Source: Opitutaceae bacterium
Lineage (GTDB): Bacteria > Verrucomicrobiota > Verrucomicrobiia > Opitutales > Opitutaceae
NCBI GenBank assembly: GCA_031263125.1
Contig: JAISGL010000334.1
Coordinates: 1-35,367, forward strand
DNA: 35,367 bases
Direction of reading: 5' to 3'
Shown here: positions 8,177 through 29,533 of the stretch, piece by piece
Layout of the letters: every line of letters begins with the position of its first letter
How positions within the stretch are numbered: the stretch's first letter is position 1
Translations under genes and position numbers: made by a program
The notes under the pieces: model-generated
What the model saw: the letters and a program-made list of their open reading frames with translations, nothing else
What the model was told of the DNA's origin: nothing
Database searches by the model: none

Positions 8177-9385
8177 TCACCTCGCGGGGCGCCATTCGTG
8201 CAGGGCCAGCGCGGCGGCGCCGAGGGCGCCGCTGAACTCGCCCATCGTCGAATAAACGACCTCGGGCATGCGCGATTCGGAGAGCGCGAGGATTGACTCC
8301 ATCGTTGCGCGCAGAGGTTGCAGCAGGGCGTCCCCGAATTGCGTCAGCGGACCGGCGATCACGATTTTTTCCGGATCGGCCACAAGCGACAGATGGGCGA
8401 TGGCCCAGCCGAGACATTTCGCGGCTTCGCTGACGACGAGCGTGGCAAGCGGGTCGCGGCACTGGATGGCCTGCACGATGTCTTCGAGCGTCACGGCGGA
8501 AGCCTTTTTTTTCAAAATGGATTTTTCACCGCTGGAAATGGCGTTTTGCAGCGCCCGCTGGATGGCTCGCGCCGAGGTGGCTTCCTGAAGTTCGACTCCG
8601 GGGAGTTCCGGGTTTTGCGAGCCGTTGCCAAACCACGCCGCCGCGCGTTTGAGCAGGATGGGGCAGCGCCAGCGTCCAAACTCGCCCGCGCCGTGGCGCG
8701 CGCCGCTGTAGAGGCGCCCGTTCAGGACCATGCCCGCGCCGACGCCGCTGCGGATGCCCACGCAGATGAAATCCCGCACCCCGAGTCCCTGCCCGAACCA
8801 AAGCTCGGCGAGCGCCATTGAGCGCACGTTGTTTTCAAGGTAGACCGGCACGCCGAACTTCGTCGTCAGGCGCTTCGCCAGCATGATATTTTTCCATTTG
8901 GAAATATATTTGTAACGGAGCGCGACGCCTTCGGTTGAATTGACCAGGCCCGGCACGCCCACGCCGATTGCGAGCAGGCGCCGGGAGTCCGACGGGAGGA
9001 CTTGCGCGATGGTTTGCTCGATTTTTTTGACAACGTCGGCCGCGGAGTCGTTTGCGCTGATTTCCGTGTGCGCGCGGCGCAGGGGCGTGTCGGCAAAATC
9101 CACGGCGGTGGCCATGATGTGACGCGCCTCAAAGTCGATGCCCGCAAACTCGCCGCCGTCGGGGTTGAGCTTGAGTTGCATGGGGGGGCGGCCTGATTCG
9201 CGCGTGGCTTTTTCGGTTTCCAGCAGGAAGCCGTCGGCAATGAGGCGTTCCACGTAGATGCCGGCGGTGGACGGCGAGAGATGCAGCGAGCGCGCGAGTT
9301 CCACGCGGGATATGCCGCTCGAACTGCGCACCAGTTTCAAAATGTCGGACTCCAGATCGGATACTTTCAAATGACTGCGTCTCAT
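8177..9385 (-). CDS. ROK-family transcriptional regulator (NagC/XylR/Mlc type)
   Basis: The 402-residue protein starts with a winged HTH (about residues 12-55, ISRVELARSLHLSPSTAGIY) and continues with a ROK sugar-sensing domain: ATPase-like first half with GVGVPGLVNSTEGV (141-154), LENNVRSMALAE (183-194) and SGVGAGMVLNGRLY (213-226). ROK repressors bind AT-rich palindromes and let go when they bind a sugar or sugar phosphate. The family's zinc site (GEIGH followed by CxCGxxGCxE) is altered: GEFGR at 234-238 with no cysteine cluster. It is transcribed away from the transaldolase operon; the 230-bp gap holds one of three matching palindromes, so self-regulation and control of all three downstream blocks is likely. 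The ATG at 9385 has no ribosome binding site. The effector may be sulfoquinovose or sulfofructose. Confidence 0.9.
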   Translation of the reverse strand: MRRSHLKVSDLESDILKLVRSSSGISRVELARSLHLSPSTAGIYVERLIADGFLLETEKATRESGRPPMQLKLNPDGGEFAGIDFEARHIMATAVDFADTPLRRAHTEISANDSAADVVKKIEQTIAQVLPSDSRRLLAIGVGVPGLVNSTEGVALRYKYISKWKNIMLAKRLTTKFGVPVYLENNVRSMALAELWFGQGLGVRDFICVGIRSGVGAGMVLNGRLYSGARHGAGEFGRWRCPILLKRAAAWFGNGSQNPELPGVELQEATSARAIQRALQNAISSGEKSILKKKASAVTLEDIVQAIQCRDPLATLVVSEAAKCLGWAIAHLSLVADPEKIVIAGPLTQFGDALLQPLRATMESILALSESRMPEVVYSTMGEFSGALGAAALALHEWRPAR

Positions 9386-9614: not shown

Positions 9615-10262
9615 ATGAAAATATTCATCGACACCGCTGATATTAAGCAAATTGAAGAAGCCCTCCAGTGGGGCGTCATTGATGGCGTGACGACCAATCC
9701 GTCGCACGTATCCAAAACCGGCCGTCCCGCCGCCGATGTCTATCGCGACATTTGCGGGGCGGTGAAAGGCCCCGTCAGCCTGGAGACCATCGCGCTTGAC
9801 GCGCCCGGAATCATCAAGGAGGGCAGGGCGCTCGCCGCGCTTGGCGAAAACGTGGTCGTGAAAGTCGTGAACACGGTCGAGGGCCTGAAGGCGGTCAGGG
9901 CGCTTTCCAGCGAAGGCATCAAGACGAATGTCACGGTGACGTTCTCGCCGACGCAGGCGTTGCTCGCCGCGAAATGCGGCGCGACGTATGTCAGCCCGTT
10001 TGTCGGGCGCCTCGACATGTTCGGCCACGTGGGCATGGAGCTGGTGCGCCAGATCAGGACGATTTATACAAACTACGGCTACAAGACCGAGATCATCGTC
10101 GCCGCCGTGCGCCACCAGACGCACGTCCTCGAATCCGCCCTGTGCGGCGCGGATGTTTGCACGATGGCCTGCGACATCATCAGGCAGATGTTCGAGCATC
10201 CGCTCACCGAAATCGGCATTCAAAACTTCCTCAACGACTGGAAGAAGGTGCCGCTGAAATGA
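9615..10262 (+). CDS. Transaldolase, candidate sulfofructose transaldolase
   Basis: The 215-residue product is a short-type transaldolase (Fsa/TalC family, cytoplasmic TIM barrel). FIDTADIKQIEEAL opens the chain, GVTTNPS is at 24-30, and Lys83 in VVVKVVNT is the Schiff-base lysine. Phe129 in SPFVGRLD and Glu57 in VSLE are the residues that mark true transaldolases; fructose-6-phosphate aldolase has Tyr and Gln there. So it should pass a dihydroxyacetone unit to an acceptor rather than release it. In a sulfo-TAL pathway it would split sulfofructose, giving sulfolactaldehyde and fructose-6-phosphate or sedoheptulose-7-phosphate. The YihU-like reductase next door supports that. A housekeeping transaldolase is the alternative. 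It is the first gene of block 1, after operator 1. Confidence 0.9.
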   Translation: MKIFIDTADIKQIEEALQWGVIDGVTTNPSHVSKTGRPAADVYRDICGAVKGPVSLETIALDAPGIIKEGRALAALGENVVVKVVNTVEGLKAVRALSSEGIKTNVTVTFSPTQALLAAKCGATYVSPFVGRLDMFGHVGMELVRQIRTIYTNYGYKTEIIVAAVRHQTHVLESALCGADVCTMACDIIRQMFEHPLTEIGIQNFLNDWKKVPLK

Positions 10263-10372: not shown

Positions 10373-11254
10373 ATGAATATCGCATTTATCGGGCTTGGCG
10401 TCATGGGGCTGCCCATGTCGTTGAACTTAATCAAGGGCGGGCACAGGGTGCGTGGTTACACGCTGCTTGAAAAAGACATGGCGGCGTTTGTCGCGGGCGG
10501 CGGCATCGCGGCGAAAAGTTCCGCCGAGGCGGTGCGCGACGCCGGGTTGATCATCAGCATGCTGCCGGCGGGCGAACACGTGCGCGCCGCCGTCTTCGAT
10601 CCGGGCGGCATTGCCGGGGGCATGCCGGAAAGCGCGCTCTATGTGGACATGTCCACGATCGGGCCGCTTGAAACCGACCGGATTCGCGGGCAGCTCGCCG
10701 GACGCGGCCTGTCGATGATGGACGCGCCCGTGGGCCGGACATCGGCGGCTGCGCGCACGGGCACGCTCCTGATTTTCGCCGGCGGCACGCCGGAGCAGAT
10801 CGCGCGCGCCGAGCCTGCCTTCAAGTGCATGGGCGAGCGCACGATCGACTGCGGCGGCGCGGGCCGGGGCATCCGCATGAAGCTCGTGAACAATTTCATG
10901 AGCATTTCGCTCAACGCGCTTGCGAGCGAATGCATGGTGTTTGCCGACGCGCTGGGTGTTTCGCGCCCGCTCGCCATCGACGTGATGGGCGGCACGCCCG
11001 CGGGCAGGGGACATTTCACCACGACGTATCCAAAAAAAGTTTTCGCCAACGATCTCGCGCCCGATTTCGCGCTCAACCTCGCGCACAAGGACCTCGGTCT
11101 CGCGCTCGACGCCGCGAACACGCTGCACGTGCCGCTCCCGCTCGGAGCCGCCGCGCGCGAAATATATTCGATGGCCCGCGCGAAAAAAATGGGCGCCCTG
11201 GACTGGACGGCCCTGCTGCGCTTCTACGAAGAAACCGCGAACCCGAAGGGCTAG
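10373..11254 (+). CDS. yihU: 3-sulfolactaldehyde reductase, YihU-like
   Basis: The 293-residue enzyme is a beta-hydroxyacid dehydrogenase with a Rossmann motif GLGVMGLPM (8-16) and catalytic Lys170 (RMKLVNN). Most relatives have DAPVSGG in the substrate loop; here it is DAPVGRTS, as in E. coli YihU. Arg122, Asn173 and Ser177 fall where YihU has Arg123, Asn174 and Ser178, the residues reported to hold the sulfonate. Long stretches such as GHFTT, LAHKDLG and HVPLPLGAA also match YihU as I remember it. It should reduce sulfolactaldehyde to 2,3-dihydroxypropanesulfonate with NADH. The ATG at 10373 follows a T/A-rich leader with no ribosome binding site. It lies between a transaldolase and a TauE-type exporter, which agrees with this role. 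Confidence 0.87.
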   Translation: MNIAFIGLGVMGLPMSLNLIKGGHRVRGYTLLEKDMAAFVAGGGIAAKSSAEAVRDAGLIISMLPAGEHVRAAVFDPGGIAGGMPESALYVDMSTIGPLETDRIRGQLAGRGLSMMDAPVGRTSAAARTGTLLIFAGGTPEQIARAEPAFKCMGERTIDCGGAGRGIRMKLVNNFMSISLNALASECMVFADALGVSRPLAIDVMGGTPAGRGHFTTTYPKKVFANDLAPDFALNLAHKDLGLALDAANTLHVPLPLGAAAREIYSMARAKKMGALDWTALLRFYEETANPKG

Positions 11255-11357: not shown

Positions 11358-12110
11358 ATGGATTTCCCCGCAGGCACACTCGTCTGGATATGCGGCGTGG
11401 CGCTCGTGGCCAGTTTTGCGCAGGGTCTCACCGGCTTCGGTCTGGCCGTGATCTGCACGCCGCTGCTCTCGGTGATGCTGCCCGTGCAAACAAGCGTGCC
11501 CGTGGCGGCGGTGTGCGGCGGGGCGGTGACGATTCCAATCATCATGACACTGCGCCGGCATATATTGTGGAAACCCGTGCTCACGCTGGCGGTCAGCGCG
11601 GTGCCGGGAATATTTCTCGGCGCGCGACTGCTCAAGGGCGTCCCGTCCGCGTGGATCATGGGTGCGATGGGGGCCGTGCTCACGTGCCTGGGGCTGTTTC
11701 AATTGTGCAACGGGCGCGTGCCCCCGGCGTTTCGCGGGCGGGCGCTCGGCGCGGCGTGCGGATTTTTTTCCGGCATGATCGGCGCCGCTGTGGCCGCGCC
11801 CGGGCCGCCGGTCATCGCCTACACGAGCCTGCAAACCACCTGGAGCGTGGACGAAACGAAGGCCGTCATGAACGTGTTTTTTCTGCTGCAATCGCTCGTG
11901 GTCGTGCCCGTTTACTGCATGAACGCGCAAATGACGCCTGACGTGCTGCGCGCGGTCGCGCGGGCGTTTCCGTTTGTCGCGGCGGGGCTGGGCGGCGGCT
12001 TGGTTTTGTCGCACCTGTTGCGCAATCAAATGCCGGTTTTGCGCCGCATCATCCACGCGGCGGTTTTGCTGCTCGGCGTTTATATGCTTTGCCGCGCCGC
12101 GCTGGCCTGA
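11358..12110 (+). CDS. TauE/SafE-family anion exporter
   Basis: The 250-residue inner-membrane protein has about eight hydrophobic segments and the two related half-repeats of the TauE/SafE family: GLTGFGLAVICTPLL near residues 24-38 and GFFSGMIGAAVAAPGPPVIA near 135-154. Members export sulfite, sulfolactate, sulfoacetate and other small organosulfonates. Placed straight after a sulfolactaldehyde reductase, it most likely exports dihydroxypropanesulfonate, or less likely sulfite or sulfolactate. A TauE-type exporter is found in several sulfoglycolysis clusters. The ATG at 11358 has no ribosome binding site. Confidence 0.85.
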   Translation: MDFPAGTLVWICGVALVASFAQGLTGFGLAVICTPLLSVMLPVQTSVPVAAVCGGAVTIPIIMTLRRHILWKPVLTLAVSAVPGIFLGARLLKGVPSAWIMGAMGAVLTCLGLFQLCNGRVPPAFRGRALGAACGFFSGMIGAAVAAPGPPVIAYTSLQTTWSVDETKAVMNVFFLLQSLVVVPVYCMNAQMTPDVLRAVARAFPFVAAGLGGGLVLSHLLRNQMPVLRRIIHAAVLLLGVYMLCRAALA

Positions 12111-12159
12111 ATTTCCAACCAAGGCATCCGTCAACCCAATCACCCCGTCACCATTTCCC

Positions 12160-13080
12160 ATGATCAAAATCGTCCCCTACAAAGGCTGGCAAAACAACCT
12201 CAGTCTCGGCAACGGCACGGTGGAGCTGATCGTGACGCTCGACGTGGGGCCGCGCATTTTATCCTACACGAAAAACGGCGGCTTCAATCCGCTCAAAAAC
12301 AACGATGACCAGATGGGCGGCACGGCCGAGGCGGCGTGGAAAATCCGGGGAGGGCACCGCTTGTGGGCCGCGCCGGAAAATCGCGCGACAACCTATTTTC
12401 CCGACAACGCGCCCGTGTCCTGGAAGCAACTCGGCGGGCTGGGGCTGGGCGCGCGCGTGACGCCGCCGCCCGAAAAATCGAACGGCCTTCAAAAGGAAAT
12501 CGACATCGTCCTCGACGCGCAAGGCGCCGGCGTGACACTCACGCACCGCATCACGCGCATCGCCGCCACACCCGTGACGCTCGCCCCGTGGGCGTTGACC
12601 GTGATGACCCCCGGCGGCGTCTGCATCATGTCGCAACCGTCTTTCGGCGAACATCCGCGCGACCTGCTGCCAAACCGGACGCTTGTGCTCTGGCCTTACA
12701 GCGACCTCGGCGACCCGCGCTGGCATTTCGGAAAACACCACTACCTGCTGCGGCAGGACGCGACGCGTGGCCCCAACAAACTCGGACTCGCGCTCACGGC
12801 GGGGTGGGCGGGCTACGCGGTGGGAGGCGTCCTGTTCATAAAAAGATTCCCGTGGGAAAACGGCGCGCCTTATCCGGACGGCGGCTGCAATTTCGAAACC
12901 TTCACCAACGCCAGAATGCTCGAAATCGAAAGCCTCGGCCCGCTCGTCACGCTTCAGCCGGGGCAGACGGCCGGGCACGTCGAGACATGGGAATTGCACG
13001 ACGGCCCGGACGTGGCGGCGCCCGACTTTGAGCAGGCGCTTGCCGCGCGACTCGGGCAACTCGAAGGCATGAAAATGTGA
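12160..13080 (+). CDS. DUF4380-family protein, possible sugar mutarotase
   Basis: The 306-residue protein resembles DUF4380, a family with a galactose-mutarotase-like beta-sandwich. Visible family features are VELIVTLDVGPRILSY (about 22-37), GGHRLWAAPE (66-75), and a C-terminal EIESLGPLVTLQPGQTA (about 265-281) followed by ETWELHDG. No signal peptide is seen, so it should be cytoplasmic. In sulfoquinovose clusters a separate mutarotase (YihR family) converts the anomers; this gene is at the matching place here, so I infer the same job for it, without proof. The ATG at 12160 is 49 bases after the exporter stop, so it probably ends block 1. The next block has its own operator. Confidence 0.72.
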   Translation: MIKIVPYKGWQNNLSLGNGTVELIVTLDVGPRILSYTKNGGFNPLKNNDDQMGGTAEAAWKIRGGHRLWAAPENRATTYFPDNAPVSWKQLGGLGLGARVTPPPEKSNGLQKEIDIVLDAQGAGVTLTHRITRIAATPVTLAPWALTVMTPGGVCIMSQPSFGEHPRDLLPNRTLVLWPYSDLGDPRWHFGKHHYLLRQDATRGPNKLGLALTAGWAGYAVGGVLFIKRFPWENGAPYPDGGCNFETFTNARMLEIESLGPLVTLQPGQTAGHVETWELHDGPDVAAPDFEQALAARLGQLEGMKM

Positions 13081-13189: not shown

Positions 13190-13304
13190 TGATGCTTCCA
13201 ATGTCCCCATTTCCTCCGCGAGCCTCCCATTTTGCATGGCGCGCATCCGCCAAAAAACCCTTTCGCACATATTCAAACAGCCGTTGAAAAAGCCGGAAAA
13301 TCCA

Positions 13305-14666
13305 ATGAACACGAACGAGACGACACAACCCTGCATCGGGGTGATTTTCCTCGGACGCAAGCGTCCGGGGTTTGACATGGATTGGGGGAGCGCGATGGAG
13401 AAGCGCGTGCGCGACGTGCTCCAGACGCTGCCCTGCCGCATCGCCGAGCCGCCCGAAAAAGTCATGGACGAAGACACACTGCGCGGCGCGATGAAATCGT
13501 TCGGCGACCGGCGCATCGAGGCGCTTGTCGTTTTGCAAGGCACGATGGGCGACGCGCGCCTCTCGCAATCCGTCGCGCAAATGTGGCGGGACCCCGTCGT
13601 TATCTGGGCCACGCCGGAAAATCAAAGCGGTGATATGATCAGCTCGTGCTCGCTCGTCGGCACGCACAACTGGGGGTCGGTGCTGCGCCAGCTCGGTCAT
13701 CCGTTTGAGCTTGTTTACGGCACGCCGGAAGAGGACGGCACCCAACGCCAGTTTGCCGAAGCCATCAACATAGCCCTCACATGCCGCCGTCTGCGCAACA
13801 CGCGCCTCGGCCTCGTCGGCGGACAGGCGCCGGGATATTTCGCGATGGCCGCGGACACATTTGTCACCTACCGCGCCCTCGGCGCGCAAACGCAGTCGTA
13901 CAGTCTGATCGAATTTGACAACATCGTCCGCGTCATCAGCGACAGGGAAATCGCCGATGACATCGGGCGCTTCAAAGCACTCGGCATCCCGCACAAGGAC
14001 ACGACCGACGCCGACCTCCCGATGGCGTCGCGCCTTTATCTTGCGATGCGCGCCTGCCTCGACAACGAACGGCTCGACGCACTCACCGTCCGCTGCTGGC
14101 CGGAAATGGCCGCGCATTTTGGCCAATGGCCCTACGCGGGCATCGCGCGCCTCCTCGACGAAGGCCGCGCGGTCGCCTGCGAAGGCGACGCCGACGGCGC
14201 GCTCACCACGCTCATCGGAAAACACCTCGGCATGGGTCCCTGCTACATTACCGACTGGCTGGAGCACGACCACAGGACGATCACGACCTGGCACATCGGC
14301 GCGGCGCCCACGTCGTTCTGCCCGCCCGCCGGCCAGCCCGGAGGCCCGCGCCTCGCGAAACATTTTAATATAAGAAAACCGGCCGTGTTCGAGGCGACGC
14401 TCCTCGAGGACATGCCTGTCACCATCGCACGCTTCTGGCGTTGCGACGGCAAATATCTCGTGACCGCTCGCGAAGGCCGCACGATCAAGCCGCGCCGCCA
14501 CCTCAAGGCGACCAACTCGCTCGTCGAAATGACCGCCGTGGACCCGATGGTCTGGTTCGACACCCTCATCCACGAAGGCATGCCGCACCACGCGCTCGTC
14601 TTCCGCGGCCACCACGAAGCCCTGCTCCGGCGCTTCGCAAGGACAATGCAGATGCAATTCATATAA
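13305..14666 (+). CDS. L-fucose/L-arabinose isomerase-like protein, candidate sulfoquinovose isomerase
   Basis: The 453-residue cytoplasmic protein has the layout of fucose/arabinose isomerases: an N-terminal Rossmann-like part (IGVIFLGRKRPGFDMDWG; VVLQGTMGD; VVIWATPENQSG), a middle part with RLGLVGGQAPGYFAMAAD, and a C-terminal domain ending in EGMPHHALVFRGHHEALL, close to the GMxHH ending of arabinose isomerases. These enzymes interconvert aldoses and ketoses with a metal. In sulfo-TAL clusters the sulfoquinovose/sulfofructose isomerase comes from this superfamily, which fits the neighbours; a plain sugar isomerase is the alternative. The ATG at 13305 is preferred to one at 13236, because the extra 23 residues are not family-like. 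It opens block 2. Confidence 0.75.
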   Translation: MNTNETTQPCIGVIFLGRKRPGFDMDWGSAMEKRVRDVLQTLPCRIAEPPEKVMDEDTLRGAMKSFGDRRIEALVVLQGTMGDARLSQSVAQMWRDPVVIWATPENQSGDMISSCSLVGTHNWGSVLRQLGHPFELVYGTPEEDGTQRQFAEAINIALTCRRLRNTRLGLVGGQAPGYFAMAADTFVTYRALGAQTQSYSLIEFDNIVRVISDREIADDIGRFKALGIPHKDTTDADLPMASRLYLAMRACLDNERLDALTVRCWPEMAAHFGQWPYAGIARLLDEGRAVACEGDADGALTTLIGKHLGMGPCYITDWLEHDHRTITTWHIGAAPTSFCPPAGQPGGPRLAKHFNIRKPAVFEATLLEDMPVTIARFWRCDGKYLVTAREGRTIKPRRHLKATNSLVEMTAVDPMVWFDTLIHEGMPHHALVFRGHHEALLRRFARTMQMQFI

Positions 14667-14719: not shown

Positions 14720-16183
14720 ATGACGACACAGACTGCAATTATCATTGGCTTGTTACTATACGGCTTGCTGATGCTTGGCGTATCCATATTCTTCATGCTC
14801 CGTGTGAAGAAGGCGACGGACTATCTTGTCGCGGGGCGCGGCCTTCCGGCGTTTATTCTTGCGGGCACAATCGTGGGAACCTGCATCGGCACCGGCGTCG
14901 TCATAGGCGCGTCGGGGCTGTCGTACCAGCACGGTTGGGCCGGCTGTGCGTATCCCATCGGGCTGGGTTTTGGCACGCTGATCACGGGCATCATGTTTGC
15001 CGTGATGCGACGTTATCAATTCATGACACTGGCGGAAGAAATAGCCTGTTATTACGGCAACCACCGCATTGTCGTCGAATTTTCCAACATCGGTCTCTTT
15101 TTGTCGCAATTGTGCTGGCTGACAGTGCAGATCATGGGCGGCGCGGCGGTTCTCGGCGCCGTCACCGGGTTGCCCCGTGAAATGTGCATGGTAATCGCCG
15201 GCGCCGTGACAGCCGTCATTTCAATTCCGGGCGGGCTGAAAACGGTTGTATATACTGACTTTTTGCAGGCAGGCATATTATTGGTGGGGTTTGGTCTTCT
15301 GTTTTATTCGGCGCTGAGTCACCACGGTGGTTTTGCCGGCATTGAACAGGCTGTTCCCCCGGCTTATCTGTCGATTCTTGGCACGGAATCATACGGCACA
15401 TGGAAAGTCTTCGGGCTTATGATCGCCTTGATTCTTGGTGTCATCGCCGATCCCGGAAGACGGCTGACAATGTTCAGCGCGCACAGCGCCAGGGGAGCCA
15501 GGGGAGCGATGGTGACCGCCGGTATTATTGTAATGGCCTTTTCCGTGATAGTGGGAGTGGTCGGCATGTATACATACCGGCTCAATCCCAATCTTCCCGC
15601 CGCCGACCAGGCGTTGCCGTGGCTTGTGATGAACGTGCTCCCCCCGTGGCTCGCGGCGGTGATCGTGGTATCAATCGCATCCGCTGTTTTCTCCTCGGCC
15701 AATGGAAACGCGGCAGCCGCCGGGACCTTCTTTGTGCGTCATATATTTCCGCTTGCGACGGGGCGTTTCCCAAAAAATCCCCTGAAGGCCGTGCGACGCG
15801 CGCTGGCGGCGGCATTTGTGATAGCGACCTGCATAGGTTTTTATACGGGCGACATCGTCAATTTTGTGGCGAAATTCCTGCCTGTGACAATGAGCGGACT
15901 CGCGGTTATTATTCTTGTCGGGCGCTTCTGGAAACGCGCCACATGGCAGGGCGCGCTGGCGGCGCTGATCGTCACGCCGGTGGTTTCACTTGTCATCATG
16001 TTCATGCCCACGCAAGGCGCCTTCTGGAGCAATCCCGTGATTCCGGCATCCCTTGCGGGCTTGGTGGCGCATATTATCGCAAGCCTGTCGACACCGCGCA
16101 ATACGCACGCCTTCGATGATATCGTCAGACAAATGCACCAGGTTCGGGAATCCATCGAGAACGCCCCGCCCGAGGGCCACTAA
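14720..16183 (+). CDS. Sodium:solute symporter (SSS family)
   Basis: The 487-residue protein has about 13 hydrophobic segments and SSS motifs: an N-terminal YLVAGRGLPAFILAGTIVGT (residues 35-54), GTGVVIGASGLSYQHG (56-71) and GVIADPGRRLTMFSA (236-250). It would bring a sugar or organic anion into the cytoplasm with sodium. Lying 53 bases after the isomerase and 22 before the aldolase, it is probably co-transcribed with both and takes up the sugar they use. Sulfoquinovose is the proposed cargo. No ribosome binding site precedes the ATG. Confidence 0.88.
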   Translation: MTTQTAIIIGLLLYGLLMLGVSIFFMLRVKKATDYLVAGRGLPAFILAGTIVGTCIGTGVVIGASGLSYQHGWAGCAYPIGLGFGTLITGIMFAVMRRYQFMTLAEEIACYYGNHRIVVEFSNIGLFLSQLCWLTVQIMGGAAVLGAVTGLPREMCMVIAGAVTAVISIPGGLKTVVYTDFLQAGILLVGFGLLFYSALSHHGGFAGIEQAVPPAYLSILGTESYGTWKVFGLMIALILGVIADPGRRLTMFSAHSARGARGAMVTAGIIVMAFSVIVGVVGMYTYRLNPNLPAADQALPWLVMNVLPPWLAAVIVVSIASAVFSSANGNAAAAGTFFVRHIFPLATGRFPKNPLKAVRRALAAAFVIATCIGFYTGDIVNFVAKFLPVTMSGLAVIILVGRFWKRATWQGALAALIVTPVVSLVIMFMPTQGAFWSNPVIPASLAGLVAHIIASLSTPRNTHAFDDIVRQMHQVRESIENAPPEGH

Positions 16184-16205: not shown

Positions 16206-17069
16206 ATGAGATTATACAACGCAAAACAACTCTGTGACAAAGCCGCCGCGAAAGGTTTCGCCATTCCGGCCCTCAACAACAACGGAGGCAGCTACGACAT
16301 TGGCCGCGCCATCATTGAAGCGAGCGAAGAACTGCAATCGCCGCTCATCATCCAATGCTTCGAGCCGAATCTCGAATATCGCGGCTTTGATTACGCGGGC
16401 AAACTGATCCGCGAACTCGCCGCCGGCATCACCATCCCGATGGCAATCGCGCTCGATCACGGCAGCAGTCCGCAGACCGTCCTGCGCGCCGTCCGCGCCG
16501 GCTTTACGCACGTGATGATCGACTACGCGCACAAGCCCATTGCGGAAAACATCGCCGGCACGAAACTCGTGCTCGACCTCGTGCGCCCGCTCGGCATCAG
16601 CGTCGAGGCGGAAATCGGCCATATTATAAAAAGCGGCGACGATTCGGATGCGCGCGCGCCCAAGGTATCCGTTGAGGAGGCGAAGGAATTTGCCGCCGGT
16701 GTCGACGTTGATCTGCTGGCGGTCGCGGTTGGCACCACGCACGGCATCTTTGTGAAGCAGCCGTGCCCCGACTTGAAACTGATCTCCAAAATCCGCGACG
16801 CGGTGAAGCAGCCGCTTGTGCAGCACGGCACCTGCGGCATCTCCATGCGTGATATTTCAAAGGCCGCGAAAGCCGGCATGACGAAGATCAACTTCGGCGA
16901 AGGTCTGCGCATGAATTATATAAAATACTTCAACGAGCTGACCGTGACGCTCAGGCACGAGGGCCACGCCTGGCGCATCGAGCGCGCCGCGAAGGACAGG
17001 CTCAAGGAAGACATAAAAACCATAATCCGCGCCGTAGGCTCCGAGGGGAAGGCGCATTTGTTCAAATAA
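16206..17069 (+). CDS. Class II (fructose-bisphosphate-type) aldolase with altered phosphate site
   Basis: The 287-residue enzyme is in the FbaA/GatY/KbaY family. The metal and catalytic residues are kept: ALDHG (Asp/His), SVEAEIG (Glu), GTTHG and QHGTCG (His). Residues that hold phosphates in the family are not: HG(A/G)SG is HGTCG, KIN(V/I)xT is KINFGEG, DASH is DYAH, and the IIQxS segment is IIQCF. So a phosphorylated ketose may not be the substrate; a non-phosphorylated ketose such as sulfofructose is possible, but that is inference. There is no sugar kinase in the locus. The gene starts 22 bases after the symporter and ends 31 before the GH2 gene. Confidence 0.85.
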   Translation: MRLYNAKQLCDKAAAKGFAIPALNNNGGSYDIGRAIIEASEELQSPLIIQCFEPNLEYRGFDYAGKLIRELAAGITIPMAIALDHGSSPQTVLRAVRAGFTHVMIDYAHKPIAENIAGTKLVLDLVRPLGISVEAEIGHIIKSGDDSDARAPKVSVEEAKEFAAGVDVDLLAVAVGTTHGIFVKQPCPDLKLISKIRDAVKQPLVQHGTCGISMRDISKAAKAGMTKINFGEGLRMNYIKYFNELTVTLRHEGHAWRIERAAKDRLKEDIKTIIRAVGSEGKAHLFK

Positions 17070-17100: not shown

Positions 17101-19563
17101 ATGTTACATCCGATAATGAAAAAGAACATGCACCAGCCGTCCGGACTTACCCGGCGTGATTTTATGCAAAGTTGCGCGCTCGGCGCGGTTGCGCTTGCTT
17201 CCGACAGCGTGCTTGGGTCGCGTATTTTTGCGGCCACGGGTTCAGGCTCCGCAAATATTCCCAACGGCCCTGCGAGCCGGCGTGTGTTGTTTAATAAGGA
17301 TTGGGTGTTTGTCGGGAAAACATCAACGGGCGCGACCGCGGCGTCGTTCAACGATGCGAAGTTCAACCGCGTCACGCTTCCACATTCCGCGGTGAAACTC
17401 TCCTGGCAAAACTGGGACTACCACAAATGGCATCATCTGTGGACATACAGGAAACATTTCACCCTGCCGAAGGAAATGCGGGGCATGCGTGTCTTTCTTT
17501 ACTTTGAAGGCGTGATGGCGGGCGTTGCGCCCACGATCAACGACCGCAAACTGCCCGCGCACACCGGCGGTTATCTGCCCGTGCGCTACGAAATCACCAG
17601 CCACCTCAAGGATGGGAAAAACGTGATCGCGCTCGAGGTCGATGGGCGCTGGCTCAATACGCCGCCGTCGGGTTCGCCCGAGGGTCCGCGCAACATCGAC
17701 TTTCTGGAACCAGCCGGCATCCATCGTTCCGTCTGGCTGGAAGCCGTGCCCGCGGCATATATCAATAATGTTTTTGCGAAGCCTGCCGACGTGCTCCAGC
17801 AATCACGCCGCCGCGTGGAGGTGTCATGCACTCTGGATTCAACGGGCGTCACAGGCGATGCGCAGGTGGTTGCCGAATTGCGTGACGGAACCCGTGTTCT
17901 CGCGCAGGCGAAGAAGCAGGTTTCCATCGGGAAAAAAGGCGGAACCAAATGCGCGCTCGTCCTCCCAAGTCCGGGTGACATCGGCCTCTGGTCGCCGGAT
18001 TCCCCGCAACTCTACGACGTGGTCACCACGCTCCACGTGGGCGGACAACCCGTGCATGATTACAAAACGCGCATCGGGTTTCGCGAGGCGAAGTTCACGG
18101 TGGACGGTTTTTTCCTCAACGGAAAACGCCTCCAGATATTCGGCCTCAACCGCCACGAATTGTATCCGTACGTCGGATACGCCATGCCGCCGCGGGTGAT
18201 GCGCCGCGATGCCGAAATACTGAAGCACGAATTCAACTGCAATTTCGTCCGCTGCTCGCACTATCCGCAAACGGAGGCGTTTCTCGATGCGTGCGATGAA
18301 CTCGGCCTGCTTGTCTGGGACGAGATACCGGGCTGGCAGTACATCGGCGACGACACATGGAAGAACCGGCTCGTGCGCGACGTGATCGACATGATCATGC
18401 GCGACCGGAATCATCCGTCGGTTGTCATTTGGGGCACGCGCGCCAACGAATCGAAAAGCGACGTGGAACTCTACCGGAAGACGCGCGCCGTGGCAAAGCG
18501 CCTCGACGGCTCGCGCCCGACCTCCGGCACGATGACCAACGGCACACGCAGGACATGGAAAGACAACTGGGAGGAGGATGTGTTCACTTATGATGATTAT
18601 CACGCCGAACCCGACGGCACCGTCGGCATTTTTCCCCCGGTTGAAGGCCATCCCTATTTGATCGGCGAGGCGGTGGGTCAGTTTAATTATAAAAGACGAA
18701 GGGATTTCGACAGCAAGTACCGCCGCGCGGGCGACGTGGCGTTGCAGCAAAACCAGGCGATCTATCACGCGCAGGCGCACAACAAGGCGGGTTATGATCC
18801 GAATATTTGCGGCGTCATCGCGTGGTGCGCGTTTGATTACGCAAGCATCATCAATAATTACAACATGATGAAATGTCCGGGCGTGGCGGACTGCTTCCGC
18901 ATCCCGAAACCCGGCGCATCGTTTTATCGCGCGCAAGGCGATCCGTCCGCGCGCCCCGTGATCATCCCCGGTTTTTATTGGGACTTCAACGGCTCCATGC
19001 CGATGGGGCCGGGAAAGCAGTCGGCAATTTTCTCCAACTGCGAGCGGCTCGAAGTTTTTGTCGATGGCAAAAAACACGCGACGCTTGAGCCTGACACAAA
19101 AAATTATCCGAATCTCAGGCACGCCCCTTTTTTCGTTGATCTGGAAATCGACGGCGCCATGCGGCCCGGGTTGAAAATCGACGGTTACGTTGGCGGAAAA
19201 TGTGTGCTGTCCCGGCAGTTTTCGAGCAATCCGGCCAGGGATCGCCTGAGCCTCGCGGCTGACGACACGGAGATTGCAGGCGACGGCACGGATGCCACCC
19301 GGATCGTCTTCAAGGTGACCGACGAATTCGGCTCCGAGCGCGCATTTGCCTCCGGCGATGTGACATTCGAAATCAAGGGCGCGGGCGTGCTCGTCGGCGA
19401 CAATCCGTTTTCCCTGGCCGACTCGGGCGGGGTGGGCGGGGTCTGGCTCAAAGGCAAGCCGGGCGGCACGGGCGCGGTCACGGTGACGGCCACGCACCCG
19501 CGGCTTGGCTCGCAAACGGTCACCGTGAATCTCTCAACCCGGTATGATGCGTTTGGCGCATAA
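17101..19563 (+). CDS. Tat-exported glycoside hydrolase family 2 enzyme
   Basis: The 820-residue protein has a twin-arginine signal (LTRRDFMQSCALGAVALA, residues 17-34), then the GH2 order: sugar-binding jelly roll (about 60-215), an immunoglobulin-like domain, a TIM barrel (about 330-620) and C-terminal Big-like domains. The likely acid/base is Glu450 (NHPSVVIWGTRANES) and the nucleophile Glu523 (YLIGEAVG). GH2 members cleave beta-galactosides, beta-mannosides, beta-glucuronides and relatives; which one cannot be told. It ends block 2. A sulfoquinovosidase would normally be GH31, so its link with the sulfoglycolysis genes is unclear: it could free a sugar from a mixed sulfonated or sulfated glycoside. 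The ATG at 17101 or 17116 (five residues shorter) is possible. Confidence 0.9.
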   Translation: MLHPIMKKNMHQPSGLTRRDFMQSCALGAVALASDSVLGSRIFAATGSGSANIPNGPASRRVLFNKDWVFVGKTSTGATAASFNDAKFNRVTLPHSAVKLSWQNWDYHKWHHLWTYRKHFTLPKEMRGMRVFLYFEGVMAGVAPTINDRKLPAHTGGYLPVRYEITSHLKDGKNVIALEVDGRWLNTPPSGSPEGPRNIDFLEPAGIHRSVWLEAVPAAYINNVFAKPADVLQQSRRRVEVSCTLDSTGVTGDAQVVAELRDGTRVLAQAKKQVSIGKKGGTKCALVLPSPGDIGLWSPDSPQLYDVVTTLHVGGQPVHDYKTRIGFREAKFTVDGFFLNGKRLQIFGLNRHELYPYVGYAMPPRVMRRDAEILKHEFNCNFVRCSHYPQTEAFLDACDELGLLVWDEIPGWQYIGDDTWKNRLVRDVIDMIMRDRNHPSVVIWGTRANESKSDVELYRKTRAVAKRLDGSRPTSGTMTNGTRRTWKDNWEEDVFTYDDYHAEPDGTVGIFPPVEGHPYLIGEAVGQFNYKRRRDFDSKYRRAGDVALQQNQAIYHAQAHNKAGYDPNICGVIAWCAFDYASIINNYNMMKCPGVADCFRIPKPGASFYRAQGDPSARPVIIPGFYWDFNGSMPMGPGKQSAIFSNCERLEVFVDGKKHATLEPDTKNYPNLRHAPFFVDLEIDGAMRPGLKIDGYVGGKCVLSRQFSSNPARDRLSLAADDTEIAGDGTDATRIVFKVTDEFGSERAFASGDVTFEIKGAGVLVGDNPFSLADSGGVGGVWLKGKPGGTGAVTVTATHPRLGSQTVTVNLSTRYDAFGA

Positions 19564-19713: not shown

Positions 19714-22700
19714 ATGAAGCCTCTGCATTCCGTGAAAGCCATCAAACCCCTTGGCGCATTCCTTGTGTGCCTCGTCGCAACCATCGCCGCCGCCACCGCC
19801 ACAGCGGACACATTGTATTTTGAAGGCGGCACTTTTTTTAATTACAACACCGAGGTCAAAGCCGGCGACACCATCGTCATGAAGGCCGACCTCGCCCTGG
19901 GCGAGGGCCTCTTTTTTGGAGCCACGGGGCAACCGTTGAAATCGTTTTCAATAATATCGGACGATCCCAACACATGGCGCACATTCACCCACGACGGCGG
20001 GACAGGAGGGCGCCTCATGCAGCTCCAGAATGGCGCCATCGAACTGACTTTTGACCACATTATTTTTTCCTCGGGAACGGCCCCGGCCACGCCCGGCGGC
20101 GGATTCAATTTCAGTGGCGGAACCACCAACCAGACACTCACGATAAATGGCGATTTTATCGTGCAGGATTGCTACATCGGCACGAATGGCGGCGGTATGT
20201 GGATCGCCAGCCAGGCTGTGTTCACGGGGTCGGTGTCGTTCCTGCGCAATCGCGCGATGACTACGGGCGTGGCCAATGGCGGCGCGATAGCCACTAACAA
20301 CGCCGACGGCCTGACCTTCCGGGGCATCAGCCTGTTCGCCAGCAACACATCCGTCTATCAAGGCGGCGCCATCAGCCAGATAAAGGACAGTCTTCCGAGA
20401 TACGGCGTTATCTTTGAAAACAAAACCACTTTCACGGACAACTACGCCGGGGTGAGGGGCGGCGCCATTTCCGCGCACAGCGTCGATATTCAGAAGGACG
20501 CGGATTTCATCAATAACCGTGCCGGCACCGAAGGCGGCGCGCTTTATGCAAGGAGCACTTCGAGCAGCGTGAACAGCGTGCGAATCGCGCCCGTTTCCGG
20601 CGCGGTCGTCTTTTCAAACAACGCCGCAATAAATGGCAGCGGCGGCGCCATCTATGCCCAGGGCGCCATGTCGGTTTCCGGCTCCACCTCCTTCGCCGGC
20701 AACAGCGCCGGCGCCAGCGGCGGCGCCATCTACGCCCAGGGCAATCTGTCGGTTTCCGGCTTCACTTCCTTTGTCAACAACAGCGCCGGCGCCTTCGGCG
20801 GCGCCATCTATTTCAGGTCGGCCAATGGCACGCATACGCTGACCCTCAACGCTTCCGAGTCCGATATTCTTTTTGAAAACAACCAGGACCACACGTCCTC
20901 CACGCCCGGGCGCAACGCCATCAGCATCTACACCGATGCCGCGCAGACCTCCGCGCCTTCGCTCGTCCTCAACACCGGCAATGCCGCCGCGGCGCACGTG
21001 ATCCGCTTCCACGATCCGATCAGTGTTTCGGATGTCACGGCCCTCGCCCGAATCACGCAGACGGGCAACGGCATTGTTCTTTACGACACTTGGCAAAGCG
21101 CCGTTTCCGCGACCACGACACTCTCCAGCGGCACCATGCTGCTCACGCGCGGGGCGGTTTACGGCACGTCGGACAGCATCGGCGATTTTATCGTCTCGGG
21201 CAGCGCCACGCTTTCCGGCAACGGCGCCGTCAGGGCCGCCACGATCACCCTCGCTGACGGCGCGCACATTCAGGTCAACGGCAACGGCACGCTCTCGCTC
21301 CAGGCCGCGACCTTTGCCACCGGCACGGACCTCAAGCTCTCCGGCCACGGCGTCATCGCCGCCGCCACGACGCTCAATGTTTCGCTCATCGAAGTCGGCT
21401 CGCCGTTCACGGACAATCCGCTCTCGCTGACAGGCGCGAATTTTGCGCAGACACTCACGCTCGGCTCCTCCACTCCCGTCGTGCTCGCAGACGGCGGCAG
21501 CATCGAAATCGATCTCTTCGGCAGCGCCGGCGACCTGCTCGTCGCCGACTCGTTCACGCTCAGTGGCTCCGCCTATGTCAACCTCACCGGTATCGGCAAC
21601 GGAGCTTACAAAGTCCTCGTTTCATCGGGCAACCTCGCCACAAACACCGCCGATCTTATCGCGCTCGTAAACGGCTCCGCGCCCGCGGGCCACTACGAAG
21701 CCGCGAAAGATTATCGCAATTCCAACACCGAACTCTGGATCAACCTCATCACCAAAAATCTTGTCACCACGTGGACCGGCACCGCGCTCGAAGGCGGCAT
21801 CTGGAAACACTCGCCCGACGACGCTTTCAGTTGGACTGACGGCGATGCGACCCAACCCGACCTGTCATTCCTCAACGGCGACGCGGTGGTTTTCGATGAC
21901 AGCGCGACCGTCAGGACAGTCGCCGTCGACGCGGCGGGCGTCATCACCGCCAACATGACCGTGAGCAACGCGTCCGGCAACGACTACACGATCACCGGCG
22001 CCGGCGGCATCGTCGGCAGCGCGACCAACAGCAGCGGCGGAGTCGTCGTCTCGCCCGACGGCAAACTCGTCAAGACCGGCGCGGGCGCGCTCACTTTCGA
22101 GAACACCGGCGCCAACACCTTCGAGGGCGGCATTGAAATCGGCGGCGGCACGCTCGGCTTCACCGCAGCCAGCCAGCTTGGAGACGGGGGCAACGGCATC
22201 CGCTTCACGGACGCCGCCGTGCTTCTCGCCAGGACAAACAACATCACCCTCGCCAACACCCTCAAAATCGACGCGGGCAAAACCGCCACGCTCGACATTG
22301 GCGCGAACACGCTTGCCCACGCGGGCGCCATCGTGTCCACGGGCACGCTCGCCAAGATCGGCTCCGGCATGTTGCGACTCACCGCGGACAATGCCACCGG
22401 CGCGGGTGACACGCACGTCATGCAAGGCTCGCTCATCCTCGACGGCGCCTCCGCAAAACTCGGCGGGCGCATCGACGTCGACGCCGGCGCCATCCTCGGT
22501 GGCAGTGGCGTCGCGACCGGCGACGTGCATGCCGCGACCGGCGCCATCATCCGCCCCGGTATCCCCGCCGCGGCCGATCCCGTCACGCTCACCATAAACA
22601 ACCTCCACCTCGATTCCTCGATACTCCGCTTCAACCTCTTCACAACCGGAACCAACGACCGCATCAACGTGACCGGCATGCTCACGCTCGCCGGCAACAA

Positions 22701-25700
22701 CACCGTCGACATCAGCGCATTTCGCACCGGCACGTTCAACCTCGGGCGCATCGCCGGCCTCAATGTCGCCGGCACGGAAATCACCATCAGCGGCGTCGCG
22801 CAAATCCCAGGCTCCCGCCAGACCGGCGTGCTTTCCAGCAGTGGCGGCGACCTGCTCCTCATCGCCGGCGCCGACATGTCGCGCATCCTCCGCTGGACCG
22901 GCGTGACCAGCGGCACGTGGATATCCATTGATTCCAACTGGACCGACGGCGCCGCCGTTTCGCTCTACTCCGGAGGCGACCGCGTCATCTTCGACGACTC
23001 CGCCGCCGGCGTCTTGCGCGACATCACCATCGCCGGCTCCGGCGTGACCGTGTCCGACATGCACGTGCAAGGCACATCCAGCTACGCTTTCACCGGTGCC
23101 GGCATCACGGCTGATCCCACCAGTGTCGTATCCGGCACGGTCATCACCACCGGCGCCGGCAAACTTGTGAAGGCGGGCGGCGGCACGCTCGCCTTCACCA
23201 ACGCCGCCAACATTTTCCAAGGCGGCATCGAAATCGACGGCGGCGCGATCACCTTCACCGGCGCCGGTCAACTCGGCGACGGCGGCAATGGCATCAGTTT
23301 CACCGGCGATGCCGCGCTCGCTTCGCTCTCCGACGGACAGACTCTCGCGAATGACATCGCCATTTCCGCCGGCAAGACCGCGACCCTCGACACCGGCGCG
23401 AACACACTCATCCTCACCGGTTCGCTCACGGCCTCGGGCGGCGCCGCGACACTCGCCAAGACAGGCGCGGGCATGCTCGTCCTCAGCGGTATGGAAACCG
23501 GCGGGGCAAATCTCCTCGCCCGCATTGATGAGGGCAGCATCGGTCTCGACGACATTCGTCTCGCGGGCGCCATCGAACTCGGCGCAAACACGACGCTCAT
23601 CGGCACTGGCGCCGTCGGCGCCGTCCGCGCGGACGGCAACGCGACCGTCCGGATCGACGCCGGCACGCTCCATGTTGACGACATGCGACTCGCCGCCGGC
23701 GCCACGCTCGCCGGCAGCGGCATACTGGGCGGCGCCGCCGTTCTCGACGGACAAGTCATTGCCGACATCGCGGCTGGCGGCACGCTCACACTCGCCAGTT
23801 CGATCACCGGCGCGGGCGGTTTTCTCAAAACAGGAAACGGTTATTTGAATTTCGACGGGGCCGCCGCCTTGCAAAATACGGGGACAATGCAAATCGACCA
23901 AGGTGTGGTGATCTTTGCCGGAATATCCGCAACCGACGCCTCTCTTGTTTCACAGAACATCATGCTCAACGGCGGAATTCTTTCGCTCAATTCCGATTCC
24001 GCGGGAACAAGTGAAAGTGCGGCGGCCAACTGGTCCGGCCTCCATTTGATCCAAGGTGCAAACGCCGCCGACAGCTGGGTGACTGGCGCCAATGAAATGC
24101 TCACCGTGGGCAGCGGCACCATGTCCTGGGGAATGCGTGGCGGCATCCATGTGATTGTGGATGCGGGCAACGGCGTCACGGTATTGGGCAATGCAAACAA
24201 TACCTTTGACGGCATCGTCCGCGTCGACAGTGGCACACTGCGCGTTGACTCCATCGGCCAGCTCGGCGCCACCGGCACCCTCGCCTCCGCCAAAGTCGCG
24301 CTCACCGGAGGCGCGCTCCAAATCAGCGGCACTGGCATCACCACCACGCGCGCCATCGAACTCCGCGCCGACGGCGCCGTCACTGTCGATTCCGGCATCG
24401 AAACCACGTGGGGCGCGATCACCAAACCCGTCTCAACCGACGCCGCCACTTTCACCAAGGCCGGTTCCGGCACGCTCGCCGTGATGGGCGCCAACGCCGC
24501 CACCGGCATGACCGTTGCCGGGGGCGTCTACATCGCGCGTTCAGCCGCCGCCTCGCCCGCAACCACCGTTGCTGTCAACAGCGGCGCGGCCTTCGTGCTC
24601 AGTCCGACCAACGCGCCCTCCGGCGCAGTCATCGGCTCCACGGGTGGCCGCGACATCATCGCCACCGGCACGGTCGCAAGCGACTTCACCGGCTCCGGCA
24701 CGCTGATTGTCAGCAACGGCACACCTCTGCTCACCGGTGGTTTGACCGACATCGCGCACATCAACGTCACCGGAAACGATGTCACCGCCATCGTGATGCC
24801 CAACCAACGGCAGGCGTTTTTCGGGCATCATTCCGCTATCACCGTTGACCGAGGCTCGCTCGTGCTGGGCGCGGCAAACCAGACGATGGGTGACGTCACG
24901 CTCGCCAACGGCGGCACGCTCGGTTTCCTGATGAACGCCGGCACCGTCCAGGAAGCCTTCAAAACCGCCACACTCTCCAGCCTCGCCGGCAACGGCGCGC
25001 TCGTCTTCAACGCCAATCTCGCCCGTGGCAGCGCCGATATGCTCACCGTCAATTCGGCCATCACCGGAACCTACGGCATCCACGTCGGCAGGGTCGGCGA
25101 CGCCCCCAGGGAATACCACGCCGCGATCACCCTCATCAACGCCCCCGATTCCGGCGACGTCACCTTCAACACGCCCGGCGCCATCGATGTCGGACTCTAT
25201 TCCTACGCGGTCAGCGCCACCACCGCCGGCGGCAAGACAGGCATCACCATCTCCGGCACCGGCGCGATGAGCAACTCCGCCTCGCTCGTCAACGCCATGT
25301 CCGGCGCGCTCCCGCTCAGCTGGTTCGCCGAACTCAACACCGTGGCACAACGCATGGGCGAACTGCACATGGAAACCCGCGATCGCGAAGGCGGCCCCGG
25401 CACATGGGTGCGCGGCTACGGCCAGTCGCTCGAGTTCAAGGATAACGTCACCGGCACGCCCTTCGACGAACGCCTGATGGCCGTCGAAGCCGGCGTCGAC
25501 TATAAAATCCCCGATGTCCGCCACAACGTCTACCTCGGCGCATTCTTCGGTTACGGCCAGACGGATCGCGCGTTCTCCATGGCCGGCGAAGGCGGCACCG
25601 AAAGTTTCTTCGGCGGCGTCTACGGCACGCTCGGCGCCGCGTCCGGCTGGTACGTTGACGGCATCCTCAAACTCAACGGCTTCAAAAACACATTCACCGC

Positions 25701-26208: not shown

Positions 26209-26249
26209 ATTTTTGCACCACCCATAACCAATCAACCGACTGCCTCACC

Positions 26250-29200: not shown

Positions 29201-29501
29201 TGGTTTGCGTCCCGATGAAATCACGCTCAACACCGAAATGCCCCGGACCCTTGAATTATATTCCACGGATTATACCCAGGATATGGTCAAGGGCCAGTCC
29301 ACGCTGTTCTATGACGCATTCATCAATTATCAGCGCAAAATATTCAGGGGCAAAACGACCATGAAAATACAACTCAACGTGCGCAATATGTTCAACAACG
29401 ACACGATTCTTGTCGGACGCATAAACGAGGACGGCACCGTCCGCCGTTATTATACAAATGAGCCGCGCACCATCCGCCTGATGGCGGAGTTTATATTTTG
29501 A
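26250..29501 (+). CDS. TonB-dependent outer-membrane receptor
   Basis: The 1083-residue protein has a signal peptide (LLVIHAALVFSTALFA), a TonB-box-like VEMSVFNVTAQ near residue 63, and a plug domain with DTAASISPFTEEFL (about 92-105), FRIRGMGASIS (about 153) and DRAEVASGANSILFGMGSPG (about 176-195). A long beta-barrel follows, ending in RTIRLMAEFIF with an aromatic last residue. It would import a nutrient, likely a glycoside or glycolipid head group. No SusD partner is present; the Pmp-like autotransporter takes its place in the operon. An earlier start at 26157 overlaps the previous gene; the ATG at 26250 gives a clean signal peptide and a 41-base gap. It shares the transcript driven from operator 3. 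Confidence 0.93.
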   Translation: MFSKQTHGKIKLLVIHAALVFSTALFAQRVEQPSIDDAQAQPNPPVNIATTPPTAATDDDDIVEMSVFNVTAQDDDAYQGISTTSGSRLKTSLRDTAASISPFTEEFLSDIGATNLDDMLAFAGNVEVDVEDSTNGFNNNNTLRAAGSNNNGFRIRGMGASISSNFVDSSIPMDMYNVDRAEVASGANSILFGMGSPGGIAILSPRKANVRRNRFRVSNTVGTWYDPGQSWSYERLVLDYNIALIPRTLGIRLIGLYQNAGDWKYWVYNDAKRINPLVMIKPFRNTVIHIGYEAGVINNSTTRSFGYDDKYTAWDDAGRPLSPALGQFPIGTTPEGNPIANLMGTSDDYVFVGNNNTLYNFRNAAQSLSRYNANPATLEMNDNYKYSSAGPGGHREQKFQAWSVVLEQKIGKLNLQLGYYHNRNDIMAQSPGNNVETLRGDPNPMISPPQWRGTGTSFLEENPYAGGLYVQSVWFQNTLTGINDVARLTGEYAVNLKRLGRHQIVGMYEHAENEMLRDHKNEILVDGRGVPIASTLTSGTNATNSANQLWRRQYVTEGDFSTYYDGNGDIPVASFSIGDRVFHSTFAQAAQNASHTFRTTDSFMIALQSYWFNNRVVTTLGGRIDNLTFQGERNNPDLYPDCRITDVNDPRVLSGKKSLWEVDFNGVYDTYKFTPFTFTGGIVYHLTNRFSLFYNHGTNRGAPNLDGRTVLPVDADRYAPSKTMPPLTDGITQDYGVMIDVFGNNKVFLRLTRYDTHQLHDAAMIPNGIAGADSVLAGSANLAVIYARLYENPLVPAEEGGSQRELITAAQYANRPHWNAGMTDIHTKGYEVELTANPTKNITMRFTYSYSDRNRENLYQEVIDYYNSAIPWFWELTRDDLAARQLIYRALYDPLTNQSGGIFWDSLEDTGTRYQVANSVRYGLADQLSLQSGPLGSRPHKFNVTMRYRLPGALKGAAIGGAVRYQSPNLMPAPVRTHSEEWPNGLRPDEITLNTEMPRTLELYSTDYTQDMVKGQSTLFYDAFINYQRKIFRGKTTMKIQLNVRNMFNNDTILVGRINEDGTVRRYYTNEPRTIRLMAEFIF

Positions 29502-29533
29502 CGCCCCGCCTCGCGGCGGTATTTTGCCCAAAC

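Follow-up and report, generated by a model that had tools for sequence, protein, structure and literature searches.

An aldolase-fold gene with an altered C1-phosphate pocket pairs with sugar isomerases at sulfo-TAL- and sulfo-TK-type loci

The window, by which we mean the whole stretch of DNA analysed here, comprises 35,367 nucleotides of contig JAISGL010000334.1 from an Opitutaceae bacterium (assembly GCA_031263125.1; Verrucomicrobiota). It carries the following genes and motifs, among which the gene of main interest is referred to as ALD:

8177..9385, minus strand: ROK-family regulator with an N-terminal HTH (PF00480 and PF13412), divergent from the cluster
9615..10262, plus strand: TalC-type transaldolase (TAL), candidate sulfofructose transaldolase (TIGR00875, 293.9 bits, over the cut-off; PF00923)
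10373..11254, plus strand: YihU-like 3-sulfolactaldehyde (SLA) reductase (NF012005, 368 bits against a cut-off of 348; 53% identity to E. coli YihU)
11358..12110, plus strand: TauE/SafE-family exporter (PF01925, 86.7 bits)
12154..13080, plus strand: TTE1925-type mutarotase, start codon inferred (NF052227, 284.7 bits, under the cut-off of 550)
13236..14666, plus strand: SftI-like sugar isomerase of the FucI/AraA superfamily (NF048012, 153.9 bits, under the cut-off of 700)
14720..16183, plus strand: sodium:solute symporter, putative sulfosugar importer (PF00474; orthologues of 55-63% identity occupy the same place in related loci)
16206..17069, plus strand: ALD, a class II aldolase-fold protein with its C1-phosphate pocket replaced (287 residues; PF01116, 223.5 bits)
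16455..16460, plus strand: Asp84-His85 of ALD, catalytic acid and metal ligand, both kept (invariant in alignment A1)
16740..16742, plus strand: His179 of ALD, metal ligand, kept (invariant in alignment A1)
16824..16838, plus strand: HGTCG motif of ALD, residues 207-211 (aligned with GatY, KbaY, YdjI, SqiA and the FBA of the same genome)
16884..16904, plus strand: KINFGEG motif of ALD, residues 227-233, in which Glu232 replaces the phosphate-contacting Thr
17101..19563, plus strand: GH2 glycosidase with a putative export signal (GH2 domains; GalA model 260 bits, below the cut-off)

The window has the transaldolase (TIGR00875) and the SLA reductase (NF012005) expected of a sulfo-TAL locus, both scoring over their cut-offs. 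The transaldolase contains SLET and SPFVGRLD, which we take to be of the transaldolase type rather than of the FSA type. For the isomerase, NF048012 was the best model, and an isomerase homologue in the related locus L036 matches PF02952. ALD lies 22 bp 3' of the symporter gene and 31 bp 5' of the GH2 gene. Upstream of the sulfosugar genes, a Pel9A/PelN-like pectate lyase is encoded at 6374-7867; the GH2 gene is followed by a 2164-residue autotransporter with Chlamydia PMP-type repeats (19714-26208), and a TonB-dependent receptor (26157-29501) and a sulfatase with a PA14 domain (29498-31717) are encoded in the same 3' region.

The reading frame of ALD is unbroken over its 287 residues, and in a profile search its PF01116 match spanned residues 5-282 with a score well above the gathering score of 25.5 bits. 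Sequencing error and decay of the gene were both excluded, since full-length orthologues of 64-78% identity share its motifs. The AlphaFold2 model of ALD had a mean pLDDT of 93.5, and the sole very weak stretch was the flexible loop (residues 144-148). The best PDB match of the model was SqiA of Yersinia aldovae (8q57/8q59; Z 39.9, rmsd 1.8 Å, 31% identity), with FBAs trailing by one to three Z units. SqiA (sulfo-EMP2; PDB 8q57, 8q58, 8q59, 8q5a) resembles ALD in its fold (278-279 residues at 1.8 Å), in its metal ligands and in its sulfoglycolytic context, but it keeps the C1-phosphate site (HGGSG and KVNVDTE) where ALD has Cys and Glu, and it acts after the PfkA-family kinase SqiK, whereas the ALD loci are without a kinase. 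The tagatose-bisphosphate aldolases GatY and KbaY (PDB 1gvf) and the class IIb FBP aldolases share PF01116, the metal triad and Asp84 with ALD at about 30% identity; ALD differs from them in a two-residue insertion after N26-G27 and in newly invariant H251, H254 and W256. YdjI of E. coli (PDB 6ofu) is, like ALD, a PF01116 member with an altered substrate, yet its HGASG motif and its Thr (KINIHTE) are unchanged and the kinase YdjH is its neighbour, and ALD differs in both respects.

A preliminary description of this DNA had claimed that the metal and catalytic residues of ALD are intact while four phosphate-contacting positions are replaced. The metal ligands H85, H179 and H207 and the aldol Asp84 were all invariant in alignment A1, which bears out the first part, except that the flexible-loop Glu (aligned with E142 of Helicobacter pylori) reads Ser, Gly or Ala in the clade that includes the window, where Asp or Glu follows at the next position; in the transketolase (TK)-associated clade this Glu is kept in 10 of 11 members. 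As for the phosphate site, the Ser of HGxSG and the Thr of KxNxxT are the established C1-phosphate contacts of the aldolase family. In ALD these FBP/TBP aldolase contacts are absent: Cys210 occupies the Ser position, Glu232 the Thr position, and both substitutions stood when ALD was aligned against GatY, KbaY, YdjI, SqiA and the FBA of its own genome. Cys210 is found in 22 of the 24 aligned members of the subfamily (one has Ser, one Gly) and F230-G231-E232 in 24/24, so that chance was excluded as the source of the altered motifs. The other two proposed replacements held in part. The Ala in place of the Ser of DASH (MIDYAH, residues 104-109) is general in the window clade (13/13), but the Ser is kept in 9 of the 11 members of the TK-associated clade. 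The Phe after IIQ (IIQCF, residues 48-52) is Tyr or Phe throughout the subfamily; however, GatY and KbaY have Thr there and SqiA and YdjI have Gly, so a phosphate-contacting residue at this position is not general to the family.

The altered pocket is the mark of a monophyletic subfamily, judging from the aligned sequences. In a maximum-likelihood tree, the 24 members formed one clade (support 100/100, stem of 1.23 changes per column), and SqiA, GatY, KbaY, YdjI and the FBAs all fell outside it. Besides F230-G231-E232, the residues T209, N24, N26, G27, Y30, H251, H254 and W256 are invariant among the 24, and Thr or Ser stands at the position of Glu232 in every one of 26 further PF01116 proteins, a set drawn mainly from these genomes and completed by E. 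coli GatY, KbaY and YdjI and by SqiA. The search for orthologues with the HGTCG/KINFGEG pattern that had been recommended at the outset recovered the subfamily in three phyla, Verrucomicrobiota, Planctomycetota and Spirochaetota, and within sulfonate loci. A scan of genome contigs gave 19 loci; those of Verrucomicrobiota and Planctomycetota showed 64-78% identity, those of two Spirochaetota 46-47%. Ten of 388 Verrucomicrobiota genomes are carriers, and nine of these ten are more distant (49-55% identity). The subfamily is rare: about 390 Spirochaetota and about 390 Planctomycetota genomes each yielded one carrier, which in both cases was the genome used as the search centre, and among 150 genomes of the same family the gene occurred only in the window's own. 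No plasmid-borne relatives were found at E 1e-40.

The identity of ALD as the housekeeping FBA was rejected, as a canonical FBA is encoded on contig C478 of the same genome and in nearly all carrier genomes; membership in the SqiA family was rejected on the tree, the pocket and the absent kinase. An ordinary FBP/TBP aldolase, or a sulfofructose-1-phosphate aldolase of the SqiA type, that merely tolerates the substitutions would agree with the PF01116 membership and with SqiA as the best structural neighbour. This reading is nevertheless highly improbable, given that ALD reached none of the NCBIfam equivalog cut-offs (best 210 against 423 bits; TIGR00167, 176 against 215.6 bits), that the phosphate-contacting Ser/Thr are exchanged for Cys/Glu across the subfamily, that no kinase lies at the loci, that its own genome has a canonical FBA and that SqiA lies outside the clade.

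The neighbourhoods of ALD fall into two pathway types. Related loci in Verrucomicrobiota and Planctomycetota repeatedly show the gene order TAL, ALDH, isomerase, symporter, ALD, and SuyB-like, ComC-like and SlcC-like genes often stand ahead of this series. In Spirochaetota and in the clade of more distant members, ALD is found beside a split transketolase and an RpiB-like isomerase, in loci that further carry either SauS with SucCD-like genes and DASS, or an iron alcohol dehydrogenase with TauE; these TK-type loci match the described sulfo-TK pathway (PMC9594981). The sulfonate genes at ALD loci include a SauS-like gene (528 bits), a ComC-like gene (282 bits), a SlaB-like ALDH and SorA (over the cut-off). 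The loci share with known sulfo-TAL and sulfo-TK systems the isomerase with TAL, or the isomerase with split TK, RpiB-like protein, SauS and SucCD, and also the genes for disposal of SLA or sulfoacetaldehyde. They differ in the extra class II aldolase-fold gene, in a divergent isomerase or NagB-like substitute, in the lack of any YihQ homologue found at the locus and in their hosts, Verrucomicrobiota and Planctomycetota. Several other features were observed at these loci. Among the loci L011-L015 and L005, those of Planctomycetota have SlaB-like, SlcC-like, ComC-like and SuyB-like genes beside the sulfo-TAL genes, which probably make up full sulfolactate desulfonation sets, and the SorA sulfite dehydrogenase was over its cut-off in one Verrucomicrobiota locus. 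In two Verrucomicrobiota, the sulfosugar genes also enclose a threonine synthase gene (L005:10900-12120, over the cut-off, and L101:10474-11925).

Across the two types, the constant partner of ALD is a sugar isomerase and not the C-C cleaving enzyme. All 27 ALD loci have nearby an SftI-like isomerase (18 loci) or a NagB-like protein (10 loci), one locus having both. The C-C cleaving enzyme, in contrast, is TAL in 11 of the 27 and split TK in several others, and in some (e.g. L004, L016, L017 and L037) neither is visible, owing to a short contig or a split cluster. Conversely, of the 7 Verrucomicrobiota genomes in which an SftI orthologue reaches ≥ 43% identity, 5 carry ALD, and the pairing gave a Fisher p of 8e-8, a value that ignores relatedness and pools two slightly different samples. 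There are exceptions. One SftI-like locus, L101, is truly without ALD. In a sulfo-TK-type locus of genome G347 (L102:10794-11093), ALD has an in-frame internal deletion that removes about residues 59-238 and is either a real loss or a misassembly. In genome G152 (L103:7856-9981), a second SftI paralogue lies directly 3' of a deoxyribose-phosphate aldolase gene (DeoC, over the cut-off), and ALD, TAL and TK were not found at that locus. The NagB-like protein adjoins ALD at loci most of which lack the SftI-like isomerase (L034:8842-9696, L035:10193-11047, L037, L038, L039, L040, L020:10887-11744, L016 and L017). These proteins keep MDEY and the GH.AFN core but have Thr or Asn in place of the Asp that precedes GH in NagB, and Asp in place of the Glu. 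Their sequences suggest that they are possibly a new sulfosugar isomerase or a deaminase.

The preliminary description had also stated that no kinase is encoded in the locus. This was confirmed and extended: with E. coli PfkA, three PfkB-family kinases and GlpK as tblastn queries, no sugar kinase turned up in the window or at 29 other loci, within the limit that distant homologues may escape such a search. Nor did tblastn detect homologues of YihQ, YihS or YihT at the 30 loci. At the TK loci, tblastn gave no SlaB, apart from a local match of 25% inside the SauS gene of L034, and no homologue of the SLA reductase. The glycosidases at ALD loci belong to GH2 or GH116 and are not YihQ-like; GH31 genes lie elsewhere in the genomes. 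GH116 is best known for beta-glucosidases, and in the TK-associated clade GH116-type glycosidases adjoin the isomerase-ALD pair (L033:5722-8076, L036:4258-6624 and L041:7819-10332). The dihydroxyacetone kinase Dak1 was not found in 20 of 21 carrier genomes, several of which are incomplete (the window's own is 66% complete); it was also missing from all six carrier genomes that are ≥ 90% complete and ≤ 5% contaminated. Glycerol kinase, which can phosphorylate dihydroxyacetone, had a match in 11-12 of the 21 genomes; G176 (95% complete) and G152 (97% complete), both also without Dak1, had none.

Because the C1-phosphate site is lost and no kinase is present at the loci, the substrate of ALD probably carries a free C1 hydroxyl, that is, it is unphosphorylated at C1. 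Because the loci carry sulfonate genes (YihU-like, SlaB-like, ComC-like, SorA, or SauS with SucCD), it is also probably a sulfosugar. That ALD is a class II enzyme specific for a sulfoketose, either as a 4-epimerase or as an aldolase, we consider a good deal likelier than any other kind of role. Between these two, we tentatively favour a 4-epimerisation of the sulfoketose by retro-aldol and re-aldol chemistry upstream of TAL or TK, while granting that it has somewhat less than an even chance of being right. ALD would act on a 6-deoxy-6-sulfoketohexose whose C1 hydroxyl is free and which the isomerase encoded nearby supplies. In the active site, a divalent metal on H85, H179 and H207 would polarise C2/C3, Asp84 would handle the C4 hydroxyl, and Glu232 and Cys210, standing in the C1-phosphate contact positions, would fit a hydroxyl and repel a phosphate. 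The C3-C4 bond would be opened by a retro-aldol step and re-closed with the aldehyde flipped, converting, for example, sulfotagatose into sulfofructose. The ketoses used by transaldolase and by transketolase are 3S,4R, and the product ketose would have this configuration that both need.

Several observations argue for 4-epimerisation. The pocket change is found in 24/24 members from three phyla and is absent from the 26 other PF01116 proteins; the isomerase is constant over 27 loci while the C-C cleaving enzyme varies; and a step between the isomerase and TAL or TK suits both locus types. Furthermore, the missing Dak1 in 20/21 genomes, and the lack of a GlpK match as well in G176 and G152, speak against free dihydroxyacetone, and the TK loci have no SLA-handling homologue. 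Sulfofructose is an analogue of fructose-6-P. The class II enzyme FbaA epimerises fructose-6-P, a C1-hydroxyl ketose, to tagatose-6-P (PMC5434028), and GatZ/KbaZ carry out the 4-epimerisation between fructose-6-P and tagatose-6-P (PMC11907403). Both are metal-dependent retro-aldol/aldol activities on ketoses with a C1 hydroxyl and an anionic C6, which ALD may resemble, although GatZ/KbaZ belong to a different family and these activities are not known to extend to sulfonated ketoses. On the other side, nothing at the ALD loci points to a galacto-configured sulfosugar, the flexible-loop Glu is retained in the TK clade so that loss of a protonating residue is not general, the DeoC-type aldolase beside the SftI paralogue in L103 would suit an aldolase role, L101 indicates that the step is not always needed, and about half of the genomes have a glycerol kinase able to phosphorylate dihydroxyacetone.

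The same evidence bears on ALD as a sulfoketose aldolase, which would split unphosphorylated sulfofructose or an epimer into dihydroxyacetone and sulfolactaldehyde and so bypass or complement TAL/TK without a GAP acceptor. The class II fold with its intact metal site and Asp84, a nearest solved fold (SqiA) that is itself a sulfofructose-1-phosphate aldolase, the absence of a kinase from every locus, the SLA reductase or SlaB at TAL loci, the GlpK that could rescue dihydroxyacetone in 11-12 of 21 genomes and the DeoC gene adjoining the SftI paralogue all speak for it. Yet TAL or TK is already present at well-covered loci, SLA-handling homologues are missing from TK loci, and Dak1 is absent from 20/21 genomes, with Dak1 and GlpK both missing from two near-complete ones. 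Direct cleavage of sulfofructose makes chemical sense but is less favoured because a C-C cleaving enzyme is present, no SLA-handling homologue was found at TK loci and a dedicated outlet for free dihydroxyacetone is usually lacking; we regard the aldolase role as unlikely, if still a serious candidate. The preliminary description had suggested cleavage of a non-phosphorylated ketose, possibly of sulfofructose in a second aldol step beside the transaldolase. The free C1 hydroxyl in that suggestion is supported by the pocket and by the absence of a kinase at 30 loci, while net cleavage of sulfofructose is only possible; the second aldol step itself runs against TK loci that lack SlaB and the SLA reductase, the absence of Dak1 in 20/21 genomes and a partner that is the isomerase.

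Two further roles were weighed. ALD might be an aldolase for a 6-phosphate unphosphorylated at C1, for example cleaving F6P to dihydroxyacetone and GAP and thereby restocking the GAP acceptor of TAL/TK. The altered pocket, which predicts a free C1 hydroxyl, is consistent with this, as are the need for GAP as acceptor in both sulfo-TAL and sulfo-TK (PMC9594981) and the ability of FbaA to use F6P (PMC5434028). A canonical FBA distinct from ALD is encoded in nearly all carrier genomes, however, and GAP should be obtainable from F6P via phosphofructokinase; moreover, free dihydroxyacetone would arise without a dedicated kinase, and ALD tracks the sugar isomerase and not triose-phosphate genes. We therefore rate this role as very doubtful. 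Alternatively, ALD could serve the sulfoketose trunk without any aldol chemistry, for example in 3-epimerisation or ring opening, or could act as an aldolase on an unrelated, co-imported unphosphorylated ketose. Firmicutes sulfo-TAL/TK loci do have a conserved extra gene, SqvB/DUF4867, whose role is uncertain and for which a mutarotase or ring-opening function has been considered (PMC11968277, PMC9594981). The invariant metal ligands and aldol Asp of ALD point to C3-C4 chemistry, and a mutarotase is already present at three ALD loci, which leaves such a role improbable.

The sugar that enters the pathway may not be sulfoquinovose (SQ). The SftI-like isomerases scored 124-165 bits, far below the 700-bit cut-off of the SQ isomerase model, the loci yielded no YihQ homologue, and their glycosidases are of the GH2 and GH116 families; these weak hints leave room for a non-SQ sulfosugar. 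The loci could be sulfoglycolytic modules for such a sugar, for example a galacto-configured one, in which ALD would be a dedicated sulfoketose 4-epimerase supplying either TAL or TK and the NagB-like protein would in certain lineages stand in for the isomerase, a proposal that we consider speculative and rather unlikely as a whole.

The fold and chemistry of ALD are known in kind, while the subfamily, its altered pocket and its occurrence at loci of both the sulfo-TAL and the sulfo-TK type appear to be so far undescribed. To our knowledge, each known sulfoglycolytic route uses one C-C cleavage enzyme. A conserved extra aldolase-fold enzyme that accompanies both routes and is adapted to an unphosphorylated substrate would mean either that an aldolase route runs without a kinase or that an epimerase admits another sulfosugar. 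In the open-licence literature, we found no report of sulfoglycolysis with the ALD gene in Verrucomicrobiota, Planctomycetota or Spirochaetota; sulfo-TAL is listed for Firmicutes, Thermotogae and Chloroflexi, and sulfo-TK for Firmicutes, Spirochaetes and Thermotogae (PMC12890257, PMC9594981). If our reading is correct, a class II aldolase for unphosphorylated ketoses would be gained, which would be useful in synthesis, and sulfoglycolysis of the TAL and TK types would be extended to Verrucomicrobiota and Planctomycetota, phyla that open-licence reviews do not list.
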